Source: Paracidovorax anthurii | Lineage (GTDB): Bacteria; Pseudomonadota; Gammaproteobacteria; Burkholderiales; Burkholderiaceae_C | NCBI RefSeq assembly: GCF_003269065.1 | Contig: NZ_QLTA01000008.1 | Location: forward strand, 55,449 to 119,448 | DNA: 64,000 nucleotides | Reading direction: 5' to 3' | Part shown: positions 45,676 through 55,415 of the stretch, piece by piece | How positions within the stretch are numbered: the first letter of the stretch is position 1 | Layout of the letters: every line of letters begins with the position of its first letter | Position numbers and translations under genes: made by a program | The notes under the pieces: generated by a model | What the model saw: the letters and a program-made list of their open reading frames with translations, nothing else | Database searches by the model: none | Told to the model about the DNA's origin: nothing

Positions 45676-46359
45676 TCAGGGCGCTTTCCTGTATCGGCGC
45701 TGCTCAACCATTGTGCCGATCAACAAGAGCGGCTGAACGTCTGAGGACAAGATGGGAAAGTCGTCGTTCAGAGCGGACAACTCGTAGACAACCCGGCCTT
45801 CTGCATCAAGCCTGCGAGGCCTGTATTTCCTGAGGATGGCTGGATCTGGTCCGTTGGCGGCCGCAACGTAGTCCCCTGGCGCCGGAATCACTGCGGGGTC
45901 GATGATGACCTGATCGGATGGCCTGAACTCGTTGAGCATCGAGTTGTCGCGGACCTCCATGGCAAACGCAACAGAGGACAGTGCCTGCTCGGTCAGAAGG
46001 AAAGTCATGTTCTCGTGGGGCTCGAAGGCGTCTACTAACTCAGACCACCGGGATGCTTGGGACGCGCTGATGAGGGGAATTGGCCTAGTGCCAGCCATGC
46101 CAGCGAGGATGTCCCGCGACGAATTGTGCATCGCTGTGAATTCGTGTCCTGACTCAAAGTAGTAAGGCGAGAGATCCAGCTTCAGGGCTAGGTTGGTGGC
46201 CGAACGCTCACCGAAGGCATGTTGCTCGTCGAGCAGTTGGTTGATCCGCCCTTTGGACAATCCAGCATGTCGGGCGAACTCAGCCTGGTTGCCGGAGAAC
46301 GGTGGTCCATCGATGAGTGCGCGAAGGCGCTCCTTGCGGTGCTTCGTAAGAGAGTCCAT
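45676..46359 (-). CDS. Prophage CI-type repressor (HTH + S24/LexA-like peptidase)
   Basis: 227 residues. N-terminal HTH (NQAEFARHAGLSKGRINQLLD), linker, then an S24 peptidase domain with the nucleophile Ser in RDNSMLNEFRPSDQVIID and the Lys general base in ILRKYR, as in self-cleaving CI/LexA repressors. The usual Ala-Gly cleavage pair may be in the ILAGMAG segment near 85. It keeps the prophage silent by binding OL and OR and would be inactivated with RecA. Divergent from the Cro-like gene. Confidence 0.92.
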   Translation of the reverse strand: MDSLTKHRKERLRALIDGPPFSGNQAEFARHAGLSKGRINQLLDEQHAFGERSATNLALKLDLSPYYFESGHEFTAMHNSSRDILAGMAGTRPIPLISASQASRWSELVDAFEPHENMTFLLTEQALSSVAFAMEVRDNSMLNEFRPSDQVIIDPAVIPAPGDYVAAANGPDPAILRKYRPRRLDAEGRVVYELSALNDDFPILSSDVQPLLLIGTMVEQRRYRKAP

Positions 46360-48444: not shown

Positions 48445-49059
48445 TCAAGCCGCTAGTCATTGCCTCCAGGCTCGCGCCGAGAGGGCGGTGCAGAGTGGCT
48501 GTCGCGCTGGCCGAACTGCACGACACCTCTGCAGGAGAGATCACTGCCTCGATGGCACTCATCGCCGAGCTCGCGTCCCTTTCCACGGCGCAGGCGCGCA
48601 AGCACGTGCACGCCCTTGTATGGCGGCGCGCCTGGCATCACCCCCGTGTACGCATTCGACCGAGCCTTGCTGGAGCAACTGGCCGGCCGCGCCCCTGAGC
48701 TCTTCATGCACTACGGAGAGTTGGAGCACAGCGCCGGCACCAGCGAGGGATACCAGTTCAGCTCCGGCGGCGCTCAGTTCCTCGCCTACCTGACGGGAGA
48801 TCCCGGGGCTCGGCGCGTAGTGTTCTGGCGCCTGGATGGTTCGCATCGGACCAGCTATGGAGATGTGCGCCTGAAGACCCTTCTGCGGGACTACCGGGGC
48901 CGTCGGGGATGGCATTGCCATCTGGCCATAGATGGGAACGAAGAAGCACCGATCGAAACGATGGTGGGTATGACGCCTGCCGAGACCGCCGCGCTTGCGG
49001 CATGGGCCCAGGCCGCCGCACTGGGCCGGGCAGAGAGCTTGGTGATCCATGAGCTTTGA
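48435..49059 (+). pseudogene. Broken HTH-type prophage gene (frameshift near 48618)
   Basis: The first frame (from ATG 48435) encodes an HTH-like part ending LSTAQARKHVHALV; it then runs out of sense. A second frame, shifted by +1, opens at about 48619 with YGGAPGITPVYAFDRALLEQ and continues to 49059 as a coherent protein (FSSGGAQFLAYLTGD, GWHCHLAIDGNEEAP). Together they look like one protein of about 205 residues with a wing that may have lost some bases at the break. A sequencing error or programmed frameshift cannot be excluded. Confidence 0.65.
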
Positions 49060-49600
49060 CGCAATTGCCTGGGCGCTAGAGCAGCCGGTTCGTCCGTCAT
49101 CTGCCAAGTTCGTGCTGGTGGCGATGGCCGACTGCGTAAACGGCGAAGGAGTGGCCGACATGGTGTGCTTCCCATCGCTTGCACATCTGGCCCGGCGAAC
49201 CGCGCAGGATGAAAAAACTGTTCAAGCCAACATCCAACGGCTCCGGGAATCTGGGTTCATCACCGACACCGGAGAGCGCAGGGGGCAGACCGGCCAAGTG
49301 ATTGTGTACCGCCTAAATACCCCCGAAATAGGTGCTGTTTCGGAAGCTGTAGCCAGTTTGAAAGACCCCCAAATTTCCGGTGAAAGACCCCCAAATTTGG
49401 GGTCGTTGGTCAAGCCCGAAACACCCCCAAATTTCCGGGATAACACCCCCGAATTTCCGGTGAAAGACCCCCAAATTTCCGGTGAAAGACCCCCAAATTT
49501 GGGGTACGGAACCAGTAATAGAACCAGTGATGAAGGTAGCGCGCAAGAGGTCGAGCTTCGATGCGCTGACCGTCGAGCTGCCGGAATGGCTGCCGGCTGA
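49049..49600 (+). CDS. O-like replication initiator, HTH domain (contains iterons)
   Basis: 183 residues. An N-terminal winged-helix domain of the phage replication type (FVLVAMADCVN, CFPSLAHLARRTAQDEKTVQANIQRLRESGFI over 40-72). After residue ~100 the DNA becomes an array of repeats, giving the peptide pattern KDPQISGERPPNLG. The last ~30 codons overlap the start of the next gene in another frame. In lambda the origin also lies within gene O. Start overlaps the preceding gene by 11 bp. Confidence 0.75.
   Translation: MSFDAIAWALEQPVRPSSAKFVLVAMADCVNGEGVADMVCFPSLAHLARRTAQDEKTVQANIQRLRESGFITDTGERRGQTGQVIVYRLNTPEIGAVSEAVASLKDPQISGERPPNLGSLVKPETPPNFRDNTPEFPVKDPQISGERPPNLGYGTSNRTSDEGSAQEVELRCADRRAAGMAAG
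49366..49504. repeat. Six iteron-like repeats; candidate prophage replication origin
   Basis: Six copies of CCCCC(A/G)AATTT followed by CCGG or GGGG start at 49366, 49388, 49424, 49446, 49468 and 49490. Spacing is 22 bp except one 36-bp gap. Copies 2 and 6 are perfect palindromes (CCCCAAATTTGGGG). Because 22 is not a multiple of 3, conservation is at the DNA level, not the peptide level, as expected for initiator-binding iterons. Confidence 0.85.
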
Positions 49601-49997
49601 AGCCTGGACCATGTGGGTCAGAGACCGTGCGGATCGGAGAAAACCCGTAACCGCGGCAGGAGTGGCATTGCAGTTGCGTTCGCTGACCAAGCTGCGAGAC
49701 GCAGGGGAGGACCCGGTGTTGGTGATCGAGAACGCGATCGAGCGAGGGTGGCAGGGGCTGTATGCCGGTGCAAACGGAAGCACGAGGGCTGGTGCGAAAG
49801 AAGGGAAGTCTCTGAACCACGCAAACCCGGAGTCCGCCGCCATCAAAGCCCAGCTCGCCGCTTTGCCTGCCAACTGGTTCGAGTTGGCCGGCTTCGAGAC
49901 GAAGTACGACGCCAACGGGTCGGGGTGCCACTGGATGAACTACACCGAGTTCCGTGACCGTGAACGCATCGTGCCGAAGAAGGGGGTGCCGGCGTGA
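49530..49997 (+). CDS. Replication-associated prophage protein (O C-terminal-like domain)
   Basis: 155 residues from ATG 49530; a GTG at 49482 inside the iterons is an alternative start. The segment LPEWLPAEAWTMWVRDRADR followed by VIENAIERGWQGLYAG resembles C-terminal parts of phage O-type initiators. It overlaps the HTH-containing gene by 71 bp in another frame, so the initiator may be split between two genes here. The stop overlaps the primase start (GTGA). Confidence 0.65.
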   Translation: MKVARKRSSFDALTVELPEWLPAEAWTMWVRDRADRRKPVTAAGVALQLRSLTKLRDAGEDPVLVIENAIERGWQGLYAGANGSTRAGAKEGKSLNHANPESAAIKAQLAALPANWFELAGFETKYDANGSGCHWMNYTEFRDRERIVPKKGVPA

Positions 49998-51832
49998 ACG
50001 TGGCAGAGATCAAGGACCACCTGGCGCAGCGTGCGGGCGATGTGGCGCAGTACCTGTTGCCGGGCGGAAAGCGTGCTGGCAAGGAGTGGAAAGCCGGTAA
50101 CGTGAGCGGTGAGGCCGGGAACAGCCTGTCCGTGTGCATCGGCGGCGCGAGGGCCGGGGTCTGGAAGGACTTCGCATCCGACGAGGGGGGCGACCTCCTG
50201 GACCTGTGGATGGCGTGCCGAGGCCTGGCGCTTACCGAGGCAATGCGGGAGGCCAAGGACTACCTGGGCATCCGCGAGGTAGCCCCGAAGCCGCCGGAAC
50301 GCACCTACCGCACGCCCGAGAAACCGCGATGCAGGACGCCGAAGGACCGCGTGCACGACTGGCTCACCGGCCCGGCGCCGGACGGCCGCTGCCTGACGGC
50401 GGAAACGCTCAAGGCGTTCAAGATCGGCGAGCAGGTGGAGAACGGAAAGACCTTTGCAGTGTTCCCGTACTTCGACGAGACGGGCGAGCGGCTGCTGAAC
50501 GTGAAGTACCGCAACCCGGACGCGAAGGCCGATATGCGGCAGGAAAAGGGCGCCATGCCTTGCCTGTTCGGCTGGCACCTCATCGACCCGAAGGCCCGGG
50601 CTGTCACGATCTGCGAGGGCGAGATCGACGCAATGACGCTCCACCAGATGGGCATCCCTGCGCTTTCCATCAACCAGGGTGCGGGGAACCACCAGTGGAT
50701 CGAGAGCGACTGGGACCGGCTGGAGCGGTTCAGCGACATCACCATCTGCTTCGACCACGACGAGGCCGGCGACAAGGGCGCGCCGGAGGTGATGCGCCGC
50801 CTTGGCATCGAGCGCTGCAGGCGGGTGATGCTGCCCGAGAAAGACCCGAACGCCTGGCTGCAGTACGGCGCGGAAGCCTACGACTTCCGGACTGCCATCA
50901 ACGAAGCGAAGTCGATGGACCCCGAGGAACTGGTCAGCGCTGACGACCGGACCGAGGCGGTGATCGCGGAGTTCTACCCGAGTGCCGACGGAAGGCGCTA
51001 CCCGTCGCTCTACGTGGACAAGCACCTCGACTGGTTCGAGTTCCACGAAGGCGAGTACACGGCGTGGACCGGCTGGAACGGGCACGGCAAGAGCTTGTTC
51101 CTGGACCAGGTGCTGCTGGGCCTGATGCACCAGGGGCAGCGCGTGGTGGTGTTCTCTGGCGAGCTGACGGCGGTGCGACACCTTAAGCGCATCCACAAGC
51201 AAGCCGCGGGCCTGGACCGACCGACGCCGGCCTACCTGCGCGCCATTGGCGCGTGGCTGCGCGACAAGCTCTGGATGTTCGATGTGGTCGGCAATGCGAA
51301 GTTGGACAGGTTGCTGGAGGTGTTCGGCTACTCGGCCCGCCGGTATGGAGCCAAGCACTTCGTGGTGGACAGCCTGATGATGCTCGACGTGCCTGTCGAT
51401 GGTCCTGGTGCTCTATCGGCGCAGAAGATCGCCGTGCAGAAGATCTGCGCGTTCGCCCGGGCCTACGGGGTGCATGTTCATCTGGTTGCGCACCCGCGCA
51501 AGGGCCGGGATGAGAACCTCCCCCCTACCAAGATGGACGTGGCGGGCAGCCTCGACATCATCAACGCGGCCGACAACGTGTTCACCGTGTGGCGCAACCG
51601 CAAAGACGAATCCCCGCCAGATGCTTCCGACGAGGCCGCCATGGCGAAGTGGACCGCCCAGCAGGGCGAGCCCGATGGCCGGCTGATCCTGTCGAAGTAC
51701 CGCCATGGTGACTTCCAGGACTACACGCAGGCCCTGTGGTTCCACAAGGAATCCATGCAGTACCGGACGCAGCACCGCCGGTTCCCCCTTTCCTTCGTCC
51801 CGTTTTCCATTGAGGAGACTCCCCATGGCTGA
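49994..51832 (+). CDS. Prophage primase-helicase (TOPRIM + DnaB-type ATPase)
   Basis: 612 residues from GTG 49994. N-terminal region looks like a degenerate CHC2-type primase module without zinc cysteines (GVWKDFASDEGGDLLDLW). A TOPRIM fold follows (VTICEGEIDAMTLHQMG about 200, FDHDEAGDKGAPE about 250). The C-terminal helicase has Walker A GWNGHGKS near residue 360 and a Walker B-like HFVVDSLMML. Overall like T7 gp4: primes and unwinds at the fork. Coupled by GTGA overlap to the previous gene. Confidence 0.9.
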   Translation: MNVAEIKDHLAQRAGDVAQYLLPGGKRAGKEWKAGNVSGEAGNSLSVCIGGARAGVWKDFASDEGGDLLDLWMACRGLALTEAMREAKDYLGIREVAPKPPERTYRTPEKPRCRTPKDRVHDWLTGPAPDGRCLTAETLKAFKIGEQVENGKTFAVFPYFDETGERLLNVKYRNPDAKADMRQEKGAMPCLFGWHLIDPKARAVTICEGEIDAMTLHQMGIPALSINQGAGNHQWIESDWDRLERFSDITICFDHDEAGDKGAPEVMRRLGIERCRRVMLPEKDPNAWLQYGAEAYDFRTAINEAKSMDPEELVSADDRTEAVIAEFYPSADGRRYPSLYVDKHLDWFEFHEGEYTAWTGWNGHGKSLFLDQVLLGLMHQGQRVVVFSGELTAVRHLKRIHKQAAGLDRPTPAYLRAIGAWLRDKLWMFDVVGNAKLDRLLEVFGYSARRYGAKHFVVDSLMMLDVPVDGPGALSAQKIAVQKICAFARAYGVHVHLVAHPRKGRDENLPPTKMDVAGSLDIINAADNVFTVWRNRKDESPPDASDEAAMAKWTAQQGEPDGRLILSKYRHGDFQDYTQALWFHKESMQYRTQHRRFPLSFVPFSIEETPHG

Positions 51833-52136: not shown

Positions 52137-52355
52137 ATGGCAGCACTACCCGACCAACAAGACGCATCCCTGCGCGACCTCTTCGACGCTGCCAAGCTGG
52201 CGTGCGAGCACTGGAAAGACAGACCGGCTGCTCTCCAGGCCATGGAGCAGGAGTGCCGGGCCGTGTCTCCGCACCAGCGAGCCGAGCTGATCGAGCATTT
52301 CCAGTCGGCCTACCTCATCCCCACCATCGACGAAGCCAAGGAGTCCACTGAATGA
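52137..52355 (+). CDS. Small hypothetical prophage protein
   Basis: 72 residues, GAGGAG before the ATG. Helical (LRDLFDAAKLACEHWKDRPA). Not recognised. Overlaps the next start by ATGA. Confidence 0.6.
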   Translation: MAALPDQQDASLRDLFDAAKLACEHWKDRPAALQAMEQECRAVSPHQRAELIEHFQSAYLIPTIDEAKESTE

Positions 52356-52870
52356 AAACGTCAAACGAGACCAAAAAGAACCCTGGCGCCAACGGTAACC
52401 TCATCTGGCGCACCATGGAGAAACTGCGGGAAAACCGCCAGTCGATCACACGCAAGGTGCTCGGGGAACTCACCGGACTGCCCTACACAATCGTGGACGA
52501 CCACACATCTCGCTGGATCGACAACGGGCGCCTGCGGCGGATTTCTGATGGCGTTTATGAATTACCAGAGGCCGTCGGTGAGCCTCGCTCTATATCCGTC
52601 ACTGTGTTGCCCAATGGAACGCACGTCGTCGAGATGGGGGATGAGGAGTTGCGGGGTACGGTGGAGGAGATGGACACGCTTGGCCGGCTCCTGCAGGGCG
52701 GCGCCATGCGCTATGTTGCCCTGGGCAATCAGCATCAGGTGGGGGCAGTCGTCACGGAGGCTTACGTCCGGAACCGCCAGCTATCGGACCGCATCAGCGA
52801 CTTGGAAAGAGCGTTGCGCGCAGCCCAGGCTGTGCGGAAGCAGCAGGGCGGCGATCATGTGCAGTCGTGA
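52352..52870 (+). CDS. Prophage winged-helix-like protein
   Basis: 172 residues. RTMEKLRENRQSITRKVLGELTGLPYTIVDDHTSRWIDNG spans an HTH/winged-helix-like stretch (20-59), followed by a beta-rich centre and a C-terminal coiled coil (LSDRISDLERALRAAQAV). Possibly a late regulator. ATGA overlap with the preceding gene. Last gene before the AT-richer insert. Confidence 0.6.
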   Translation: MKTSNETKKNPGANGNLIWRTMEKLRENRQSITRKVLGELTGLPYTIVDDHTSRWIDNGRLRRISDGVYELPEAVGEPRSISVTVLPNGTHVVEMGDEELRGTVEEMDTLGRLLQGGAMRYVALGNQHQVGAVVTEAYVRNRQLSDRISDLERALRAAQAVRKQQGGDHVQS

Positions 52871-52956
52871 CTCCTGATCTATGAGGCTTGCCTCCGTGTC
52901 CCTGCGGGAGCCTATTCGTGATGAGCTGTCGTAGCATTGCTGCAGAGGGAGGCAGC

Positions 52957-54177
52957 ATGCTCAAGGTCTATCTGGACAGTCAAGACTATTCCGTTCTTTC
53001 GGGAAAGGCTCTCACGCCTGAATTGGCCCGGGTTAAGAACACGCTCCTCGGTTTTGCGGAGTCTGGACACGTCCGTTTTGTCTTTTCGAGCATCATTGTC
53101 TGTGAGGTAGCCCCGACGGGGCCGCATGCGGTGCAGTACGCGATAGAGCGAGGTGATTTGCTCACTCAGTTATGCCGACGTAACGCGTTGGTGTATCCCT
53201 TTCAACTTTTGGAACTTGAGGCGCGAGCGCTTGCTAGTCTTTCGCTCCTGTCTGCTGCGGTTGTGGCTGAAACTCAGGACTGGTTTCCCTCGTTCGAATT
53301 CGATGAGCCTACTCCGTTGTCTGAATCGTTAAGACAGTGCTTTCATTCGGATCCCATGTTTCAGGCAATGACCAGGCCCCAACGCCGTGAGGCAGAGCGC
53401 AAGCTATTTAAGAAGGGTGGTCTGCGGCCAGAGGTTCGTGATGCGATCTACTCTGCCGCGGGGCAGAATTATGTGGATGCGATTCTGGCTAAGTGGCCAA
53501 TGGACCGAGCGCACGCAGACGTATTCAGGTGCTACGCCTTGGGTGAAGCGACTCAAGACGAAGCCTCGGAAGCTATGAAGGCGTCGTTGAGAGACCCGTT
53601 TCGGCTCATGCTGTGGTTTTCTGAGAATCCAGAGCTTGCAGTGCCCTTGGTAGATCTTGTCCGTCAGCCAGGCAAAAAACTAGGTGCTCAGATGCGCCAA
53701 TTAGTGGATCTCACCGAGCAACTGAAAAGTTCAATTGGAGACACTGGGCCAGCTACGAGTCGTTGGCAGGAGCTACCTATGAGCACCAAGCGGGACTGGG
53801 AACGCAGAGTGAGCGAGCAAGTCCTGGGAGTCGTGCATGGGGTTGCCAGGCAATGCGATGTACAGCTCAATGCAGCCGTCAACTCGAAAGATGTCGCACA
53901 GTATTGCCCCGGCATAGATGCCGCCCTGCGCTCCATGATGTCCTCGTTATGGGATAACGTCGGTGGCTCTCGTCGTGATTTGCCGAGTGATAGCCAGTTT
54001 CCCGATGCCAGGCATGCGATGTACGCGCCCTATGTGGATATTTTCAGGGCGGATAGATTCATGGCGCCACACATCCGTAAACAGGTGCAGCACCATGGAA
54101 CTTCGGTGGTGGCAAAGCTTACTGAGCTTGTTCCGGAGATCGAGCGCCGGTTGGAGAAAGCATGTGCGAATTCATAA
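52957..54177 (+). CDS. PIN-like nuclease-type protein (accessory, moron candidate)
   Basis: 406 residues from ATG 52957 with GAGGGAGG upstream. Starts KVYLDSQDYSVLSG, the first-strand acidic motif of PIN-like domains (Asp7, Asp10). A later acidic/His patch, DARHAMYAPYVDIFRADR near residue 360, fits the second half of that fold (Asp...His...Tyr...Asp). The middle is helical. Visibly richer in A+T than the phage genes around it. It is not a standard head or replication gene and sits between those modules. The PIN call is by motif only; catalytic residues are not proven. Confidence 0.6.
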   Translation: MLKVYLDSQDYSVLSGKALTPELARVKNTLLGFAESGHVRFVFSSIIVCEVAPTGPHAVQYAIERGDLLTQLCRRNALVYPFQLLELEARALASLSLLSAAVVAETQDWFPSFEFDEPTPLSESLRQCFHSDPMFQAMTRPQRREAERKLFKKGGLRPEVRDAIYSAAGQNYVDAILAKWPMDRAHADVFRCYALGEATQDEASEAMKASLRDPFRLMLWFSENPELAVPLVDLVRQPGKKLGAQMRQLVDLTEQLKSSIGDTGPATSRWQELPMSTKRDWERRVSEQVLGVVHGVARQCDVQLNAAVNSKDVAQYCPGIDAALRSMMSSLWDNVGGSRRDLPSDSQFPDARHAMYAPYVDIFRADRFMAPHIRKQVQHHGTSVVAKLTELVPEIERRLEKACANS

Positions 54178-54189
54178 CTTGGAGCAAAC

Positions 54190-54714
54190 ATGAAGCTGTC
54201 TAGTCCCGAGAGGCTCATTTTGTCCATGCTCGCTTCTCTGCACGAGCGGCTGGACATTGAATCAGAAACTGCGAAGCTGATCTCCGAAGCGATTCATACC
54301 GACAATACCTGGGCGCTGACTTGGGCGCTCCCAGGTATTGTCGGCGAGCGCGTCGAAGAAGACCCCAAGGAAGTCACCGATGTCGTCAATTACCTAGACA
54401 TGTGGAGCTTTGTTGAGGAGGGTGTCAAAGCACTGTTGCCAGAAGTCCGAACAGAGCTTGAGGCCACTGTGCAAAGACCTACGAGCTTCCCGGGCTTCGA
54501 CGGAAATAACGAAGCGGAGCATCTCAGCATCGCTTACTTTCTTGTCGGCCCCTTAAAACGGTTTCAGAGTTTTGCGGGAAGAGATCTGAATTCCCATTAC
54601 CCCACATTGCACCGTTATGCGGCGATGTATGCGGTCTTTGAGCCGATGAGGCAGCATCTGGGCCTTAGGCGGCCGTTGATTCGGGAAGAACTTACTCGGA
54701 TCTTGTCCGTGTGA
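54190..54714 (+). CDS. YfbU-family protein
   Basis: 174 residues, 12 bp after the PIN-like gene and surely cotranscribed (TTGGAG before the ATG). N-terminal SSPERLILSMLASLHE and C-terminal TSFPGFDGNNEAEHLSIAYFLVGPLKRF, YPTLHRYAAMYAVFEPMR match the pattern of E. coli YfbU (LGFDAATEARYLGYVRFMV ... MWEKYQRMLNVW). YfbU has no settled biochemical role. Pairing with a PIN-like protein in a phage suggests a two-part toxin, exclusion or defence unit. Confidence 0.7.
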   Translation: MKLSSPERLILSMLASLHERLDIESETAKLISEAIHTDNTWALTWALPGIVGERVEEDPKEVTDVVNYLDMWSFVEEGVKALLPEVRTELEATVQRPTSFPGFDGNNEAEHLSIAYFLVGPLKRFQSFAGRDLNSHYPTLHRYAAMYAVFEPMRQHLGLRRPLIREELTRILSV

Positions 54715-54732
54715 TGTCCCCCGCGTAGGGTT

Positions 54733-55004
54733 TCGTACTTCGTACCATCCCCGGCACTCTCCGGGGCATGGCATCGGCAGAGCATCCCCCTATAGAAAAG
54801 GGCTTCCCAAACTGGGAGGCCATCGAGCGCGACTTCCGCATGGGAGTTCGCGCCGTCACCGCAATTGCCACTGAGCACGGTATCACGGAAGGTGCCATTC
54901 GCAAGCGCGCCAAGCGCGACGGCTGGGTCCGCGACCTCAATGCCAAGGTCCGCGCCAAGGCCGATGACCTGGTACGAAAAGCTGAGGTACGAGCCCAGGT
55001 ACGA
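54733..55004. repeat. GGTACGA/TCGTACC repeats around the small-terminase start
   Basis: Two TCGTAC units (54733-54738, 54740-54746) lie just before the small terminase gene; three GGTACGA units in the opposite orientation (54971, 54986, 54998) lie inside it. The inner ones could be terminase recognition (pac/cos-like) sites. They also encode a repeated Val-Arg pattern. Confidence 0.45.
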
Positions 55005-55415
55005 AGCGACCAACGGCTGACGGAGAGCCGGCAGATCGAGGTTGAGGCCACGATCCAACGTGATGCTCGCCTGGCTCAAAAGTCGGACATCAAACGCGCT
55101 CGCACCCTGTGCATGAAGCTGCTCACGGAACTGGAGCAGCAGACCGATCAGATCCCCGAACTGCACGAACTGGGCGAGTTGCTGCGCCGGCCTGATGACA
55201 AGAGCCAGGACAAGCTGGGTGACATCTACCAGGCCGTGATCAGCCTGCCGGAGCGCACCAAGACCATGAAGGCGCTGGCGGAGGCGCTGCGCATTCTGGT
55301 GGCCCTGGAGCGCGAGGCTCTCGGCATTGACGCGCACCCGGACGCTGGGGCCGGAGGCGAGAAGGACTTTCTGGAGAGGCTCTTGCATGCCCGCGCCCGC
55401 GTTGCCAACCGGTAG
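54768..55415 (+). CDS. Terminase small subunit
   Basis: 215 residues. N-terminal HTH of the terminase small-subunit type (WEAIERDFRMGVRAVTAIATEHGITEGAIRKRAKRDGW over 17-54), then a helical body. It recognises the packaging site and recruits the large subunit, whose gene overlaps its 3' end by 29 bp. Confidence 0.85.
   Translation: MASAEHPPIEKGFPNWEAIERDFRMGVRAVTAIATEHGITEGAIRKRAKRDGWVRDLNAKVRAKADDLVRKAEVRAQVRSDQRLTESRQIEVEATIQRDARLAQKSDIKRARTLCMKLLTELEQQTDQIPELHELGELLRRPDDKSQDKLGDIYQAVISLPERTKTMKALAEALRILVALEREALGIDAHPDAGAGGEKDFLERLLHARARVANR

Follow-up and report, generated by a model that had tools for sequence, protein, structure and literature searches.

Do two tightly spaced genes lodged between the replication and packaging modules of a Paracidovorax anthurii prophage act together as one exclusion or defence unit, or are they independent passengers of the phage? 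A first-pass annotation of the locus had proposed the former, with a PIN-like nuclease encoded by the first gene (gene A) and a YfbU protein by the second (gene B). The features of the 64,000-nucleotide stretch of DNA that was analysed (the window) on which the answer depends are as follows:

45679-46359, minus strand: repressor (phrog_4)
49049-49600: replication gene
49994-51832: primase/helicase (phrog_239)
52352-52870, plus strand: phrog_8117 gene (E 8.3e-37), left flank of the cargo slot, its gene order kept in relatives
52957-54177, plus strand: gene A, 406 aa
54190-54714, plus strand: gene B, 174 aa, phage-type YfbU-domain protein (PF03887, phrog_6084)
54725-54767, plus strand: right junction, TAGGG followed by a short tandem repeat (54725-54747 within it), matching relative L043 as DNA
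54768-55415, plus strand: terminase small subunit (phrog_1206, E 5.7e-62), right flank of the slot
after the small subunit: terminase large subunit (phrog_2)
after the large subunit: P22-type portal (PF16510, E 3.8e-95)

The position originally assigned to the two genes, between the replication and packaging modules, is borne out by the primase/helicase and phrog_8117 genes on the left and the terminase and portal genes on the right. Both genes are intact, and their tight spacing was described correctly, at 12 bp; the gap preceding gene A is also real, its length on recounting being 86 bp (52871-52956) rather than the 87 bp first given, and gene B is followed by a further 53 bp before the terminase small subunit gene starts (54768). 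Their AT-richness relative to the flanking genes is evident from both GC content (54.3% for gene A and 53.3% for gene B vs 60.5-67.1% across seven other genes) and GC3 (57% and 61% vs 73-89% in the same seven). The gene A homologue on phage contig L008 is likewise low in GC (56.1%, GC3 60%), and an IMG/VR viral contig of 35.9 kb carries an identical gene A with the same neighbours as in the window. At gathering thresholds, Rfam returned nothing between positions 50000 and 57000.

To place the two genes in the context of related phages, the content of the interval between the phrog_8117 and terminase small subunit genes was measured in relatives between profile matches to these two genes. The terminase loci examined were the best 80 of 316, and 25 loci with both flanking genes on one strand made up the slot count; standing outside it are L001, L006, L007, L010, L040, and L122, all six being copies of the locus in the window, L042, which is also the window's own, and L072, which has no terminase match. 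The slot is closed (24-82 bp) in 9 of the 25 comparable loci, among which L047/L050, L059/L060, L075/L076, and L100/L104 are near-duplicates, and in the other 16 it contains inserts of 568-3652 bp that differ in sequence, these lengths being approximate since the terminase ORF was taken from its first possible start codon. Genes inside filled slots are mechanical ORFs. Contents include gene A without YfbU (L008), YfbU with other ORFs and without gene A (L123), and, as judged on visual inspection, a ParB-like protein in L069 and small membrane proteins in L063, L071, L083, and L100. Among named phages, H66 and D14I have the slot closed at 50 bp, while in AP1 it spans about 2.3 kb and holds six genes. 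The cargo ("moron") position first suggested for genes A and B is thus upheld by a slot that is closed in some relatives and otherwise filled in the rest, by the foreign composition of the two genes, and by a sharp border on the right side. That the genes might instead be conserved essential parts of this phage group, a possibility the first-pass annotation had allowed for, is contradicted by relatives that lack both. The interval is a real feature of a known kind, namely, a phage cargo slot. As a site mainly for YfbU, it was considered and rejected, since besides the window only L123 among the 25 comparable slots contains this gene.

On the right side, the cargo ends abruptly. Among the terminase genes, that of L043 is the nearest to the window's (82%); L043 has the slot closed, and positions 54725-54898 of the window match L043 4958-5131 as DNA, beginning 10 bp past the end of gene B. 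The right-junction pattern occurs once within the window. A similar short sequence lies upstream of the terminase gene in L044, as counted with the pattern, and by eye also in L008, L041, L043, L083, and L123, whereas for several other loci the stretch examined stopped short of the region upstream of the gene start. The tandem-repeat sequence of this junction is kept in relatives whose cargo differs or is absent. On the left side, the phrog_8117 gene ends of the window and L043 fail to align as DNA.

Defence hotspots of P2-like phages and P4-like satellites are described in the available text of PMC9122126, that of P2 being located between a replication gene and the portal gene and containing validated defence systems. 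The present slot resembles the P2/P4 hotspots, as this text presents them, in being a temperate-phage slot that lies between replication and packaging/portal genes and accommodates many different gene sets. In contrast, it belongs to another phage group with a P22-type portal, and it is situated beside the terminase small subunit gene and not the cos site. The P2/P4 hotspots have also been surveyed at a larger scale and with validated defence, whereas the present slot is described by its gene content in relatives.

Gene A represents a family that is rare in the samples and has no name in Pfam, PHROGs, NCBIfam, or PADLOC; searches of all four libraries, with E values of up to 1 admitted for PHROGs and up to 10 for PADLOC and NCBIfam, gave nothing for it. 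Within overlapping genome samples of the order, class, and phylum, it was found in its own genome only (1/250, 1/369, and 1/398, respectively), and named phages and plasmids gave no match to it; the diverged members had no match in phages, and L009 had none in plasmids. Relatives were nevertheless recovered from a viral contig (L008, 61% aa identity), a metagenome-assembled member of the Pseudomonadota (L002, 33%), Polynucleobacter (L003 and L004, 32%), Pelomonas (L005, 31%), a second viral contig (L009, 25%), and an Azospirillum plasmid (L235, 23% in alignment), the last reached via one weak plasmid match of L003 and read as a shorter relative. Residues 50-108 of the Azospirillum protein show similarity to a short part of a Tritonibacter plasmid (L236 3000-3400), where no full-length ORF is listed. 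The best library matches across the seven members are to phrogs without function (E 0.003-0.005), in one or two of the seven. Between gene A and the homologue in L008, 61% of third and 20% of second codon positions differ; for gene B and the homologue in L123, the respective figures are 68% and 29%. This far greater divergence at third positions indicates that both genes are more than chance ORFs. The portal of L008 is 92% identical to that of the window, while gene A is 61% identical.

Outside phage contigs, gene A occurs in L002, L003, L005, and L235. In three of these (L002, L005, and L235), it stands alone between ordinary genes, with flanks recognized by eye as ammonium transporter and urease genes in L002 and L005, and with neighbours taken from the annotation in L235. 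The Polynucleobacter island (L003 3227-16387) contains cytosine methylase, ATPase, HNH, and type I restriction genes together with the gene A relative. There, the relative follows, at a distance of 25 bp, a gene that neither Pfam nor PADLOC recognizes, having on one side the cytosine methylase, the ATPase (with restriction-enzyme-like PADLOC matches), and the HNH gene, and on the other a type I restriction enzyme gene. Taken together, residence in phage cargo, restriction genes as neighbours in one genome, and solitary copies elsewhere are compatible with a protein that acts by itself in defence or exclusion, making gene A a candidate for such a role as judged from context.

Is gene A then a PIN nuclease? 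Across seven family members (the others being 23-60% identical to gene A), D7, D10, E50, D213, D350, D361, and D366 are invariant, acids being modestly enriched among the invariant columns (7 of 25; binomial P 0.03). Of these, D7, D10, E50, D350, D361, and D366 follow a PIN-like order. PIN proteins start with a hydrophobic-LDTN motif, and gene A starts with hydrophobic-LD[ST]xD, which reads literally LDTN in the relative L235. The PIN-like acidic motifs attributed to gene A from the outset are therefore present and invariant in the seven members. Both ends of the protein are more conserved than its middle (mean pairwise identity in the seven members of 36% and 42% vs 26%), which is variable and partly missing from the short members. 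Conserved acidic ends around a long variable middle are what a PIN-like core split by an insert would look like, without amounting to proof of one.

Sequence and profile searches, for their part, reached no PIN family above cut-off for gene A. One of the seven members, L009, touches PIN_12 (PF16289) over residues 26-80 (55 residues; E 0.0025, 18.7 bits vs a cut-off of 32), and an hhalign comparison of the gene A family with five PIN_12 proteins found no similarity. Among solved structures, there was no credible match to gene A. These results favour the alternative that gene A is not a nuclease, with its acids belonging to another fold and its cargo function lying elsewhere, such as in host takeover or lysogen fitness. 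This alternative is considered unlikely, albeit deserving of serious weight: the acids, in both their order and their invariance, and the hydrophobic-LD[ST]xD start resemble those of PIN proteins, and the negative profile comparisons have little power because few effective sequences (2.6-2.7) underlie the alignments. Compared with VapC-like toxins and PIN_12 proteins, gene A shares the PIN-like order of acids and the PIN-like protein start, and differs in its length (406 aa), its long variable middle, and its lack of a match above a PIN cut-off; the gene A relatives also share no antitoxin-like neighbour. Titles and abstract openings in the literature searched yielded no described match to a stand-alone PIN-like defence protein or to a PIN domain in a prophage or superinfection setting.

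The identification of gene B as a YfbU protein stands, given a full-length match above the curated cut-off of PF03887 (profile positions 1-164 of 166; E 5.5e-20, 72.5 bits vs a cut-off of 25). Gene B also matches phrog_6084 (E 4.3e-27) and scores 55.1 bits against the YfbU equivalog NF003936, below its 90-bit cut-off; two YfbU structures gave weak single-sequence matches (E about 0.1), and PADLOC gave 0 families at E up to 10. E. coli yfbU is reported, in the available text of PMC2646832, as a "death gene" that acts downstream of MazF and is required for the MazF-linked death of cells with damaged DNA. Gene B has the same domain over its whole length as the E. coli protein, from which it differs in falling below the equivalog cut-off and in being prophage cargo. 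In a 398-genome phylum sample, 23 of the 27 YfbU-bearing genomes belong to two families of another order, and the phage YfbU of L184 has no near copy in the E. coli genomes searched.

Phage-type YfbU was confirmed at 145 places in a viral collection, of which the best 80, many near-identical, were used. Besides that of the window, 81 YfbU loci were examined, comprising 79 viral contigs, Yersinia phage L011, and the genome locus L036; YfbU is at the contig edge in five of the 81. A membrane/coiled-coil gene (~170 aa) overlaps or closely precedes YfbU in L036 (661-1742, minus strand), L145 (4477-5552), L157 (4456-5558), and L167 (4486-5552), as grouped by eye, and possibly forms a real YfbU-containing pair with it; the L145 copy touches SLATT_1 (E 0.039, below cut-off). 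In L142 (1379-3684), an IrrE-type gene, a DUF4411 gene (PF14367, E 5.2e-36), and YfbU stand in a row. On viral contig L124 (4818-5522), a weak ribbon-helix-helix match (E 0.002, below cut-off) is fused to YfbU in one ORF, and the gene on the facing strand was recognized by eye as that of a terminase large subunit.

With both genes characterized, the question of a single unit can be addressed. None of the other gene A relatives found (L002, L003/L004, L005, L008, L009, and L235) has YfbU adjoining, no YfbU was found in the host genomes of L002, L003, and L005 (0/3), and no gene A relative lies in the fetched stretch of the other YfbU loci (0/81). Since gene A occurs alone in the slot of L008, YfbU occurs without gene A in that of L123, and the two co-occur in none of the 81 loci, two independent cargo genes are indicated rather than a unit, and this independence is supported across the loci found. 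The joint unit envisaged in the first-pass annotation therefore fails to recur, either beside other gene A relatives or at other YfbU loci, in what was searched.

The explanation preferred, tentatively and at somewhat less than even confidence, is that genes A and B are separately acquired slot cargo, gene A being a stand-alone PIN-like anti-phage nuclease and gene B an unrelated YfbU passenger. Under this explanation, the two genes would have entered the variable slot between the phrog_8117 and terminase small subunit genes in separate events. Gene A would encode a metal-dependent nuclease, probably an RNase, in which the acidic residues of the two ends come together in a single active site, a trigger possibly being sensed by the variable middle (~250 residues). 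In the lysogen, it would act against competing phages, through growth arrest or the destruction of nucleic acid, while gene B would have a role of its own in host stress or cell death. An anti-phage function for gene A is a reasonable suggestion by analogy, because the P2 hotspot holds validated defence systems, according to the available text of PMC9122126. Counting in favour of this explanation are the variable slot, the separate occurrence of the two genes, their foreign composition, the invariant PIN-type acids and better conserved ends of gene A, the contact of L009 with PIN_12, and the restriction genes around the L003 copy. Counting against it are the sub-cut-off score of that PIN_12 match and its restriction to one of seven members, the negative profile comparisons, the lack of a credible match among solved structures, the modest enrichment of acids, the lack of a PADLOC match, and the lack of a promoter-like site, and the tight spacing and like composition of the two genes fit joint arrival equally well.

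A rival explanation is a genuine two-gene system, either toxin-antitoxin or effector-regulator, in which a nuclease (A) and its YfbU partner are produced from one message. Such a system is improbable: its components are found apart in the same slot (L008 and L123), and the joint recurrence by which type II toxin-antitoxin pairs are recognized is lacking among the other YfbU loci. The observations in its favour are the 12-bp spacing, shared strand, and like composition in one phage, a same-strand ORF no more than 60 bp upstream of YfbU in 14 of the 76 other loci in which any ORF was called before it (these ORFs including the membrane/coiled-coil gene of four loci), and the DUF4411 gene 127 bp upstream of YfbU in L142.

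Little probability is likewise assigned to the proposal that genes A and B serve the phage during lytic growth, being read from upstream as late genes, and not in the lysogen. Both are oriented as the late genes are (plus strand), gene A has the same orientation in L008, and no sigma-70-like promoter was found near the cargo (0 vs 1.0 expected by chance), so that expression of the cargo in the lysogen is without sequence support. Against a lytic role, phages of this group manage without the cargo, as the nine closed slots attest; gene A also resides outside phage contigs; and YfbU is oriented opposite to the packaging genes both in L123 and in 13 of the 81 loci, in which it directly neighbours an oppositely oriented terminase small subunit gene at a distance of 64-87 bp, many of these loci being near-identical. 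Finally, the notion that YfbU of the phage type serves as an exchangeable partner or regulator and can be coupled to varied effectors (the PIN-like nuclease, the membrane/coiled-coil protein, and the DUF4411 locus) is improbable.

Temperate-phage cargo slots are a source of new anti-phage systems, as stated in the available text of PMC9122126, and one such slot is now defined in a phage group with a P22-type portal; titles and abstract openings of the literature searched contained no described match to it, nor any mention of YfbU as phage cargo. The gene A family, which occurs on phage contigs, singly between ordinary genes, and in one case in a restriction neighbourhood, is a good candidate for single-gene testing. 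If YfbU were an exchangeable partner after all, gene A would be a new single-protein nuclease effector, and YfbU, reportedly linked to death after DNA damage, would be tied to phage-host conflict. Phage-type YfbU, as frequent cargo at 145 confirmed viral places, provides a new handle on a protein family without a settled function.
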